Virus record (IMG/VR): IMGVR_UViG_3300035682_000223
Location: 1 to 21,248 of that record
DNA length: 21,248 bases
Strand: one strand, 5' to 3'
Origin: a virus
Numbering within the stretch: position 1 is the stretch's first letter; each line of letters begins with the position of its first letter. The translations under genes were made by a program, and so were the position numbers. Below, one piece after another: positions 11,456-14,134 of this stretch. The notes beneath the pieces are model-generated. The model did not search any database, was not told the origin of the DNA, and saw only the letters and a program-made list of their open reading frames with translations.

Positions 11456-11869
11456 TCAGGGGATTGTCGATAGTAATTCGTCCCGTATATCTAGTTCGAG
11501 TGTGTCCACCGCGTCAGGATCGTTCAGGACCGCGTCCTCACCGTATCTCGCAACCGCAGCTGCGTCATATGCCGCAGCCGCTTCCTTGGCCGTGTAGTAG
11601 CCGTGCCGACGTTTTCCATTGCCGACACGGACGCCAAACGATCGGTGCGACCTGCAATAACCGATGCCAATCGTCCCGCCGCTTTTGATCTTGTGCTGCT
11701 GGTGATGTTCGATAATCGTCCCTAGCCGCCTGATCAGTTCGCCGCTGCCTGGCACCTCTTTATCAAGGTCGCGATCGTCGGGGAAGGTGCTGTCAGGATT
11801 CTCGCTTTTGTACTGACAAACGATCGCGATACGTTGGTTTGTCGCGCTGGTGAGGGTCAAGGTTTTCAC
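11456..11869 (-). CDS. AP2 (APETALA2)-domain DNA-binding protein
   Basis: The 137-residue protein has an AP2 domain near residues 72-116. The core is HRSFGVRVGNGKRRHGYY, then TAKEAAAAYDAAAVARYGEDAVLN, matching the usual G-V-R, YF-x-T-x-EEAA-x-AYD-x-AA layout. AP2 domains bind DNA and in phages often accompany HNH homing endonucleases. No HNH motif is seen here, so this is a stand-alone AP2 protein or a decayed homing-type gene. It overlaps the upstream gene by ATGA. Binding of a local repeat is possible but speculative. Confidence 0.8.
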   Translation of the reverse strand: MKTLTLTSATNQRIAIVCQYKSENPDSTFPDDRDLDKEVPGSGELIRRLGTIIEHHQQHKIKSGGTIGIGYCRSHRSFGVRVGNGKRRHGYYTAKEAAAAYDAAAVARYGEDAVLNDPDAVDTLELDIRDELLSTIP

Positions 11870-12303
11870 CTCCCGATGTTTGCTGGCTTCAACATTTCCG
11901 TGGGCGATACCCTGACCGCTTTCAGCGCCATATATTGAGCGGATAATTTGCGAGAATCCAAGTCGAATTCACGCCGCTTTTGTGACGAGAAATAACTGGT
12001 GTCCACGCCTTCCATCCCGGCAATAGCTCGTTTGTATTTGCGATATCCACTCCGCTGACGCTTGCAATTGTGCTCGTAGGCTTCCAGATCTGTCAGAATG
12101 TGCACGGTGCCTTTGTAAGCCTTGACGGTCCATTGCAGGCCGATCCGGTGCAGTTCCTTTTCAACCATGCCCGCAAGTTGCACGTCCGGTGGCATCGCGC
12201 CGGTGTGGTCCTCGTTCGGGTCCACCATCATGATTTTCGCGACCTCATCAGATTCAATGATGTCGCCCTTGGACAGATCGGCCACAAAGTTCAAGTCTGC
12301 CAC
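11866..12303 (-). CDS. Hypothetical 145-residue protein immediately downstream of the hairpin array
   Basis: A GTG start at 12303 is preceded by a strong AGGAGGT site. The product begins MADLNFVADLSKGDIIES. It contains QWTVKAYKGTVHILTDLEAYEHN, and a basic helical centre (CKRQRSGYRKYKRAIAGME) that could bind nucleic acid. I recognise no family. The gene starts 43 bp past the last hairpin of the repeat array, so its translation or mRNA level may depend on it. Confidence 0.75.
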   Translation of the reverse strand: MADLNFVADLSKGDIIESDEVAKIMMVDPNEDHTGAMPPDVQLAGMVEKELHRIGLQWTVKAYKGTVHILTDLEAYEHNCKRQRSGYRKYKRAIAGMEGVDTSYFSSQKRREFDLDSRKLSAQYMALKAVRVSPTEMLKPANIGR

Positions 12304-12345
12304 GCTGCACCTCCTGTTGATTTTTCAATTCCAGAACCGTCGAAT

Positions 12346-12378
12346 CCGCATGGGCAAGTATTTCGTTGCCACATGCGG
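12346..12378 (-). ncRNA. Array hairpin 1
   Basis: This is the most divergent copy. The outer stem is CCGCATG/CATGCGG and the inner stem is GGCAA/TTGCC (plus strand). The inner pair differs from every other copy yet still pairs perfectly. The minus-strand terminal loop is CGAAATAC, keeping the YGARA start. Confidence 0.75.
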
Positions 12379-12449
12379 CCCATGCCAAACCTTGCCAAGC
12401 CCAGCCCGACCCTGCCTTGCCACGCCACGCCGTGCCGTGCCAAGCAAAT

Positions 12450-12481
12450 CCGCACCGATGGAATCTCACCATCATGTGCGG
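12450..12481 (-). ncRNA. Array hairpin 2
   Basis: Outer stem CCGCAC/GTGCGG. Inner stem GATGG/CCATC (plus strand), fully paired. The minus-strand loop is TGAGATT. Confidence 0.78.
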
Positions 12482-12592
12482 CCCTTGCCAAACCGTGCCT
12501 CGCCGGACCTTGACTCGCCTCACCGGACCGTGCCATGCCACACCCTGCCAGACCCGGCCTTGCCCGGCCTCGCCCGGCCATGCCCTGCAAAT

Positions 12593-12624
12593 CCGCACCG
12601 GTAGGCTTTCACTACCTTGTGCGG
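12593..12624 (-). ncRNA. Array hairpin 3
   Basis: Outer stem CCGCAC/GTGCGG. Inner stem GGTAG/CTACC, fully paired and different from copies 2 and 4. The minus-strand loop is TGAAAGC. Confidence 0.78.
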
Positions 12625-12715
12625 CCCATGCCGTGCCCAGCCATACCGGACCCAACCGCACCGTGCCACACCCCGCCGTGCCGTGCCACGCCCAGCCACG
12701 CCTTGCCCCGCAAAT

Positions 12716-12748
12716 CCGCACCGATGAGTGTTTCGTCATCAAGTGCGG
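12716..12748 (-). ncRNA. Array hairpin 4
   Basis: Outer stem CCGCAC/GTGCGG. Inner stem GATGA/TCATC, fully paired by compensatory change. The minus-strand loop is CGAAACAC, eight nt. Confidence 0.78.
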
Positions 12749-12844
12749 CCCTTGCCAGACCTCGCCGCACCTTGCCTTGCCCCGCCAAGCCGTACCTTGC
12801 CACGCCGCGCCAGACCTAGCCGTGCCTAGCCGTGCCTCGCAAAT

Positions 12845-12877
12845 CCGCACCGATGGATATTTCGCCACCTTGTGCGG
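12845..12877 (-). ncRNA. Array hairpin 5
   Basis: Outer stem CCGCAC/GTGCGG. On the plus strand the inner stem GATGG/CCACC has an A-C mismatch. On the minus strand it is GGTGG/CCATC with a G-U pair, which favours minus-strand RNA. The minus-strand loop is CGAAATAT. Confidence 0.78.
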
Positions 12878-12953
12878 CCCTTGCCATGCCAAAACACGCC
12901 CGGCCGTGCCTCGCCCAACCACGCCGTACCGAACCGCGCCTCGCCATGCAAAT

Positions 12954-12985
12954 CCGCACCGATAGGGTTTCACTACCGAGTGCGG
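12954..12985 (-). ncRNA. Array hairpin 6
   Basis: Outer stem CCGCAC/GTGCGG. The inner stem has an A-C mismatch on plus but is GGTAG/CTATC with a G-U pair on minus. This is the second copy supporting minus-strand RNA. The minus-strand loop is TGAAACC. Confidence 0.78.
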
Positions 12986-13061
12986 CCCTTGCCTCGCCAC
13001 ACCTAGCCCTGCCCCGCCAAGCCGTACCTTGCCACGCCTTGCCCCGCCGTGCCACGCAAAT

Positions 13062-13093
13062 CCGCACCGGTGGATTCTCACCACCATGTGCGG
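13062..13093 (-). ncRNA. Array hairpin 7
   Basis: Outer stem CCGCAC/GTGCGG. Inner stem GGTGG/CCACC, fully Watson-Crick. The minus-strand loop is TGAGAAT. The linker beyond it runs straight into the stop codon of the neighbouring gene at 13170. Confidence 0.78.
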
Positions 13094-13169
13094 CCCATGC
13101 CGTGCCTCGCCACGCCAAACCGTACCACGCCTTGCCCGGCCGTGCCGAGCCAGACCGAACCGGACCTCG

Positions 13170-13760
13170 TTAGACAGTCTTGACCTCAGTAACCTCAAAC
13201 AGCCCAAACTTAGGCCGGTAGTCACCGATTCCGATGAATCGGCCCGAGGTCTCCAGAATTGATTTGAAAGTGGATACGTCCAGATCGGACAGCATCGCCT
13301 CGAAAGTGCAGTTCCACGTTGCGAACACAGGCCTGTAACGCATGATCCGAGATCGGCTGATCATCACACCGCGAACATCGCGATACTTTGGGAGTGCCCA
13401 AAAGTCATCCGCTGTAGCCTTTTTACCAGCCGGGTGGTCGTGAACCAGAGTCGGATTGTCGTTGATCAGGATAGAAGCCTTGGCAATCTGGCCTTGCTTC
13501 GACCGCTTGGCACCGGCCACGCAACAGGCTTCGAGCATCGTGCCGAGGATGACTGGCTTTTTGGCATCATCGCAATAAAACGATGAATACCAGTCGATCC
13601 GTGCCAATTCGAGATGGTCGGAATCGGTCTTATTTTTCTTGCCGCTGACAGCTTTTCGAGCCTTGGCCCACTCGGATAGTGGATCGGCACCAGCTGCACT
13701 GTGCATCAATAGGGGACGAACGCCTCGGATATTGACTTTGACCGTTGAAAAATCGCTCAT
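13170..13760 (-). CDS. Conserved phage protein of unknown function (PLLMHS...GDYRPKFG type)
   Basis: The 196-residue protein has features I associate with an uncharacterised phage family. An N-terminal VNIRGVRPLLMHS is followed by the basic linker KKNKTDSDHLELARIDWYSS. Next come a central AGAKRSKQGQIAKASILIND and DVRGVMISRSRIMRYRPVF. The C-terminus is GIGDYRPKFGLFEVTEV. The Gly-rich end and mixed beta pattern could suggest an RNA- or DNA-binding fold, but no catalytic motif is seen. Its stop codon abuts the pentamer array, so the array may be its 3' untranslated region. Confidence 0.8.
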   Translation of the reverse strand: MSDFSTVKVNIRGVRPLLMHSAAGADPLSEWAKARKAVSGKKNKTDSDHLELARIDWYSSFYCDDAKKPVILGTMLEACCVAGAKRSKQGQIAKASILINDNPTLVHDHPAGKKATADDFWALPKYRDVRGVMISRSRIMRYRPVFATWNCTFEAMLSDLDVSTFKSILETSGRFIGIGDYRPKFGLFEVTEVKTV

Positions 13761-13778: not shown

Positions 13779-13964
13779 TTACTTAGTTACCGCAATCCTC
13801 TGCTTCCGCTCCCACACTTCCCGCCGATCGACAATGACCGCCGGTGGAGCCACGAATCCCAACTTGACCGCACCGTCCCGAGCCTCAGCCACGACGACCG
13901 TGACCGTGTAGCCGTTGATTGTGATGACGATCTCTTCGTTGACATTCCGTTTTAGCACTAGCAT
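13779..13964 (-). CDS. csrA: CsrA/RsmA-family post-transcriptional regulator
   Basis: The 61-residue protein matches CsrA along its full length: MLVLKRNVNEEIVI, INGYTVTVVVAEARDGAVKLGFVAPPA, then VIVDRREVWERKQ. The N-terminal LVLKR and the C-terminal VDRREVW carry the RNA-contact positions of CsrA, a dimer that binds GGA motifs in mRNA leaders. The start at 13964 has a GGAGG site 9 nt upstream. A longer in-frame start exists but adds unrelated residues. Phage-encoded CsrA could alter host translation or regulate phage mRNAs. The pentamer array downstream shows few GGA motifs, so it is not obviously a CsrA sponge. Confidence 0.92.
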   Translation of the reverse strand: MLVLKRNVNEEIVITINGYTVTVVVAEARDGAVKLGFVAPPAVIVDRREVWERKQRIAVTK

Positions 13965-13989
13965 CTGTTGTAACCTCCATGTTGTGAGT

Positions 13990-14014
13990 GCCGGGGGTGA
14001 TTGAAGCCCCCGGC
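13990..14014 (-). promoter_or_regulatory. GC-rich hairpin in the csrA leader
   Basis: GCCGGGGG at 13990-13997 pairs with CCCCCGGC at 14007-14014 around a 9-nt loop. It lies 26 bp upstream of the csrA start. No U-tract follows, so a leader regulatory or processing element is more likely than a terminator. The rest of 14015-14134 shows no gene. It contains a second hairpin with GTCAG/CTGAC arms near 14106-14132. Confidence 0.5.
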
Positions 14015-14134
14015 GCGAGTATGAACGGTCAACTCCCCCTGGTATCCTTGTGAGTTCGACAGGCTGATTGCCCATGAACAAACTCGAATCAACCAACTAG
14101 GAGTCAGTCAGCAGGGTGGATTTACCCCCTGACA

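Follow-up and report, generated by a model that had tools for sequence, protein, structure and literature searches.

Hairpins of a viral DNA stretch as the 3' tails of a seven-guide VIPR array

A region of viral DNA that carries seven hairpins is, together with its flanks, very probably a VIPR locus, and the hairpins are neither an independent RNA family nor free-standing repeats, but the 3' tails of seven guide RNAs (vrRNAs). The region occupies positions 12346-13093 of the window, that is, of the whole 21,248-nucleotide stretch analysed here (positions 1 to 21,248 of IMG/VR record IMGVR_UViG_3300035682_000223). VIPR, the Viral Interference Programmable Repeat, is a CRISPR relative used by phages against rival viruses and has been proposed to be older than CRISPR (PMC13142463, a bioRxiv preprint of April-June 2026). 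Its RAMP protein, Vipr, binds vrRNAs of about 100 nt, in which 9-16 YNNGG repeats precede a structured 3' tail that does not vary. Double-stranded DNA is read through the NN dinucleotides, with one base skipped, and the complex silences the genes of competing phages (PMC13142463). The window locus is assigned to this system because the RAMP gene upstream of its array matches the Vipr of Escherichia phage SUSP1, and because 49 of 50 array-bearing records tested, against 0 of 14 control genomes, contain the family of this gene, phrog_4652. New here are a family of tails unlike that of SUSP1 and a guide repertoire that is reshuffled among close relatives.

Organisation of the locus

All parts of the locus lie on the minus strand and follow one another leftward, from vipr (13760-13170) through the seven vrRNAs (13168-12340) to a probable gene for the Vipr accessory protein, vap (12303-11866). 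The features are, in this order:

13779..14096, minus strand: csrA-like gene, directly upstream of vipr (Pfam CsrA, E 1e-12)
13170..13760, minus strand: vipr, encoding a 196-aa RAMP (Csm3/Cas7-like) protein (phmmer to PDB 36pp_D; phrog_4652)
13094..13168, minus strand: vrRNA1 guide, 15 NNGGY units (GA CC TC CT TC AC CG AA GT AC TT GT GA AC AT)
13056..13093, minus strand: vrRNA1 tail, hairpin 13062-13093 and ATTTGC
12986..13055, minus strand: vrRNA2 guide, 14 units
12948..12985, minus strand: vrRNA2 tail, hairpin 12954-12985 and ATTTGC
12878..12947, minus strand: vrRNA3 guide, 14 units, 12 of the 14 NN common to a guide in record L003
12839..12877, minus strand: vrRNA3 tail, hairpin 12845-12877 and ATTTGC
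12749..12838, minus strand: vrRNA4 guide, 18 units
12710..12748, minus strand: vrRNA4 tail, hairpin 12716-12748 and ATTTGC
12625..12709, minus strand: vrRNA5 guide, 17 units
12587..12624, minus strand: vrRNA5 tail, hairpin 12593-12624 and ATTTGC
12482..12586, minus strand: vrRNA6 guide, 21 units
12444..12481, minus strand: vrRNA6 tail, hairpin 12450-12481 and ATTTGC
12379..12443, minus strand: vrRNA7 guide, 13 units
12340..12378, minus strand: vrRNA7 tail, divergent hairpin 12346-12378 and ATTCGA
11866..12303, minus strand: probable vap (Vipr accessory protein), 145 aa (homologs beside vipr in records L349 and L030; Vap1 profile match)

The Vipr of the window has a single sequence match in the PDB, the 'SUSP1 Vipr protein' 36pp_D (phmmer E 5.7e-29, residues 7-191), and is a member of phrog_4652 (E 5.6e-46). 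Its AlphaFold2 model (pLDDT 90.4, pTM 0.84) finds its best folds in Csm3 and other Cas7-like RAMPs (Z up to 11.6, 158 aligned, rmsd 3.5 A), and 19 homologs conserve its C-terminal glycine-rich loop, GIGDYRPKFG. The linkage between protein and array is also seen in a survey that starts from Vipr: GGY arrays lie within the flanks at 31 of 33 related loci, all of them on the sense strand and none antisense. A PADLOC search gave no match.

The gene at 11866-12303 is probably vap, as judged from the sequences and positions of its relatives: a homolog with 48% identity follows vipr in L349, another lies immediately behind vipr in L030 (E 9.5e-24), and the profile of its group aligns over near full length with nine SUSP1-type Vap1 proteins, each encoded directly after vipr elsewhere (hhalign 62%, E 7.4e-5). 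The gene has no PHROG or Pfam match, and the fold of the candidate has no significant match in the PDB (best Z 6.4). Each of the seven window-family records tested has the csrA-like gene, as do L030 and L278, which amounts to 9 of 48 array phages; the gene is a possible partner of the system.

Two other genes of the window may be recorded here, both on the minus strand. The one at 11456-11869 is HNH endonuclease-like (phrog_99, E 6.5e-6), and a few bases at its start are shared with the end of the probable vap; the one at 1585-2136 encodes a protein with the C-terminus VPEPRTWLLGILSALAILIRCVK, a PEP-CTERM-like sorting signal and a hint at the host.

Guides and hairpin tails

The initial annotation described the hairpins and missed the nature of the spacers between them, which are runs of 13-21 NNGGY pentamers in a strict 5-nt register. 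Read on the minus strand, a spacer consists of ATTTGC and a whole number of NNGGY units, the final pentamer ending in GGG directly before the next hairpin; the inter-hairpin lengths (76, 76, 96, 91, 111 and 71) are all of the form 6+5n. Over the 790 pentamers of the window family, the two G positions retain G in 788 and 782 cases, and the fifth base is C or T except in six units with A and in the last unit, which has G; internal deviant units number only 16. The predicted vrRNAs measure 104-143 nt, and the window guides of 17, 18, and 21 units exceed the reported range of 9-16 (PMC13142463), with relatives reaching 24. Guides 4 and 2 have a run in common, GT AA AC TT GG (12779-12803 and 13011-13035), perhaps because part of a guide was duplicated or because the targets are related.

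GGG stands before each hairpin and ATTTGC after it, except that the last is followed by ATTCGA. Because the first guide directly follows the vipr stop without an ATTTGC, and the last hairpin ends in ATTCGA, the ATTYG element travels with the hairpin that precedes it; the unit order is guide then tail, with the tail on the 3' side of each unit. By analogy with the SUSP1 work (PMC13142463), Vipr and the vrRNA would assemble into a ribonucleoprotein in which Vipr subunits line up along the guide, each GGY being held and each NN exposed, and the NN pairs would read double-stranded DNA as NNxNNx, with one skipped base between dinucleotides; the guides would thereby direct Vipr to rival DNA and silence genes of competing phages or satellites. 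The tail closes the guide tract, like a crRNA handle, and probably fixes the 3' end of the vrRNA and positions the first Vipr subunit.

The seven hairpins listed above are built as first annotated, with a structure that acts on the minus strand. The outer stem is CCGCAC/GTGCGG in six copies and CCGCATG/CATGCGG in the copy at 12346; the inner 5-bp stems differ among copies, with pairing always kept, and two copies (12845 and 12954) require G-U pairs on the minus strand. The loop starts with YGARA in all seven; TGCGA and TGGAA starts are also found among relatives. An IMG/VR scan with a short anchor found further copies, the CCGCA form being represented by 68 (35 distinct) in 12 contigs including the window, and these 35, with three related CTGCAC copies, make up an alignment of 38 distinct copies. 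Counted on the fold CCGCAC..GRTRR-loop-YYAYC.GTGCGG, all 418 cells (38 copies, 11 pairs) are standard pairs, and double-sided changes occur in 7 of the 11 pairs (50 cells), bearing in mind that relatedness among copies can inflate such covariation counts; none of 500 shuffles matches the alignment in pairing, in covariation score, or in either double-change count, and sliding the partner by 1-3 columns lowers pairing to 26-56%. In 28 cells the minus strand forms G-U pairs where the plus strand would have A-C mismatches; it is therefore the minus-strand molecule that is under selection, in agreement with the selection on RNA structure originally proposed.

The accompanying proposal of a new structured-RNA family survives in part: the hairpins are structured and selected, and no named family matches them in an Rfam search, but they are not orphans, being the vrRNA tails of a system described in 2026, so that the statement that no such family was known has been overtaken by the preprint (PMC13142463). 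A search of planctomycete genomes, which had been suggested with it, returned one match to the hairpin model in 392 Planctomycetota genomes; with an E of 4e-4 and no adjoining pentamer array, this match is attributed to chance, and a planctomycete origin was dropped as unsupported in these genomes.

Within the tail, the ARA of the loop can pair with UUU to form a pseudoknot in 29 of 37 cases, without covariation support. In L349 the tail is built alike, from a closing stem, a YGARA loop and AUUUG, with an outer stem that is entirely different, and the tail of L030 has a similar loop. The divergent tail at 12346 sits in the leader of the next gene and is near-constant in most relatives.

Known systems and alternative readings

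With the type II VIPR of SUSP1 (PDB 36pp; PMC13142463) the window has in common the RAMP protein Vipr (33% identical), GGY/NN guides, a structured 3' tail after GGG, a probable vap beside vipr, and intergenic arrays on the sense strand. It differs in the number of vrRNAs (seven, against four in SUSP1), in the length of the guides (13-21 units, against the range reported), in the position of the array, which lies between vipr and the probable vap instead of flanking the vipr-vap pair as in SUSP1, and in the csrA upstream of vipr. The tails differ as well: in the window they are hairpins of a simple two-part build, with YGARA loop and AUUUGC, whereas in SUSP1 they run GGGTAG...TGAGACT with a reported pseudoknot. 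The locus offers a natural seven-guide array with a distinct and well-supported tail fold and what is probably a SUSP1-type vap. The VIPR arrays of Gordonia phages and of phages in Mycobacterium cluster F1 (Mattes, Saal, Brocalys and UmaThurman among the two groups) are alike in having GGC/GGY pentamer guides beside a Vipr homolog, on the sense strand, but their separator is a 4-nt GGCA unit where that of the window is a hairpin. Class 1 CRISPR-Cas, with its Csm3/Cas7 RAMPs, resembles the locus in the fold of the effector (Z 11.6 to Csm3) and in a guide capped by a structured element; unlike it, the window has no identical repeats with unique spacers, and its guide code is interrupted every five bases. 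A CRISPR array proper was rejected, the spacers being NNGGY arrays and the inner stems variable, with neither adaptation nor additional cas genes showing up in the scanned ORFs of the window.

The csrA-like gene (13779-14096), given its place beside vipr and its recurrence in the window family, L030 and L278, would fit a sponge of the CsrB/RsmZ kind, in which the array titrates the protein encoded next door, and GCGGAUUUG does occur in every tail except the last. However, GGA stands at the foot of the stem and not in the loops, which are YGARA; it is nearly missing from the spacers, where 6 of 790 units end in A, and 39 of the 48 array phages have no CsrA, all of which renders a sponge very improbable. 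It is harder still to sustain that the hairpins are REP-like structured DNA or RNA repeats, acting as recombination hot spots only and having no guide function: array blocks are indeed common piecemeal to phages with 76-93% identical flanks, but GGY is strictly conserved while NN is free, G-U pairing is confined to one strand, the sense orientation is constant, and the linkage to a RAMP gene is near-universal. Stops in every frame in all ten of the other family arrays that were tested, three of which were measured with additional flanking sequence, leave practically no probability to a protein-coding repeat, for which the 323-aa minus-strand ORF at 12254-13225, the product of one open frame in the window array, might be taken; nor is there stop avoidance in 94 other segments, with 138 stops against 147 expected.

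Beside the VIPR reading, some further candidates were tried and abandoned: G-quadruplexes (a ViennaRNA G4 in 2% of segments), a diversity-generating retroelement (RVT_1 absent from all 48 array records, although these may be fragments), and transcription pausing and tRNA-Gly sponging, both dropped after Vipr was identified. The tetrapeptide repeats of Tweety gp54 (PMC2884959) are different, being a coding 12-bp repeat.

Guide turnover, target searches and the wider class of arrays

Among relatives whose flanking genes are 76-93% identical, the number of vrRNAs ranges from 3 to 10, and the guides differ in order and content. Homologous guides are almost identical or absent, which argues for cassette exchange by recombination, not for gradual change. 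Some guides are common to relatives behind a different tail, for example in L014 and L020; in the window, the vrRNA1 guide is nearly common to L020 and the vrRNA3 guide to L003. One may speculate, tentatively, that the hairpin tail makes the vrRNA an exchangeable cassette, and that the lineage swaps a shared guide repertoire by recombination, updating an anti-rival weapon without adaptation machinery; the linked CsrA may belong to the system as well. Such close relatives make guide turnover traceable, and the change of a repertoire without Cas1-like adaptation testable.

Four of the seven window guides were searched in IMG/VR in the NNx code. Those of vrRNA1 and vrRNA3, nearly shared with L020 and L003, were the natural first choices; their exact ten-unit cores have no IMG/VR match. 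The eight-unit core of vrRNA6 has 4 matches there, with extension at chance level, and that of vrRNA2 has 21, the best of which extend over 6 of 12 further bases (3 expected) and are unconvincing. A mismatch-tolerant comparison of 55 family guides with 3.1 Mb of retrieved DNA, allowing for the one-base skip, did no better than shuffled guides. The NN frequencies of other arrays track codon positions 1-2 (r 0.65, p 0.007, best of six phases), an indirect sign that agrees with a wobble-skipping code; in the window family alone, the correlation is weak (r 0.33, p 0.21). Given the unconvincing target scans and the weak result for the family, the one-base skip is a property that the window guides would have on the strength of PMC13142463.

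A scan of IMG/VR for ten GGYNN units gave at least 120 stretches, and an unbiased scan for GGNNN again found mainly GGY arrays; in bacterial genomes, the same pattern corresponds mostly to perfect microsatellites, with a median NN entropy of 0.72 bits against 2.72 in viruses. The separators vary by lineage: some are hairpins, others tRNA-like elements or short words that shift the phase. VIPR arrays that lack annotation are present in cultured cluster F1 mycobacteriophages and in some Gordonia phages, where the 4-nt GGCA unit cuts them, often into 54- or 59-nt segments; in Mattes, the array lies at 2501-2745 of L263, and the Vipr homolog at record positions 37148-37711 (E 1.3e-60). In an alignment of the Mycobacterium cluster F1 phages that leaves out Quico, 0 of 115 GGY columns are variable, compared to 22 of 78 NN columns; GGY is thus constrained and NN free. 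As these phages are in culture, their arrays, which are either unannotated or labelled hypothetical, are directly testable.

Several features of this wider class deserve mention. Separators with a T-arm GGTTCRANTCC and an acceptor-like stem are found in L048 (4284-4640, minus strand), L278 (1511-1800, plus strand) and L324 (around 9661, minus strand), where release of the vrRNAs might be the work of tRNA-processing enzymes; arrays interspersed with hammerheads are named in the main text of PMC13142463, but tRNA-like separators are not. Arrays in which GGANN replaces GGYNN, with separators of their own, occur in L306 (13441, plus strand), directly downstream of a phrog_4652 gene, and in L294 (5816, plus strand). 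In 543 segments from 166 loci outside the window family, the NN beside the 3' separator is AA or AT in 36%, against 13% inside, an excess that fades over 3-4 units; the last units before a separator may not be read as guide. Finally, among array units of all viral loci, the base after GGC is rarely C or T (12% and 18%), while after GGT it is unrestricted (28% and 25%).
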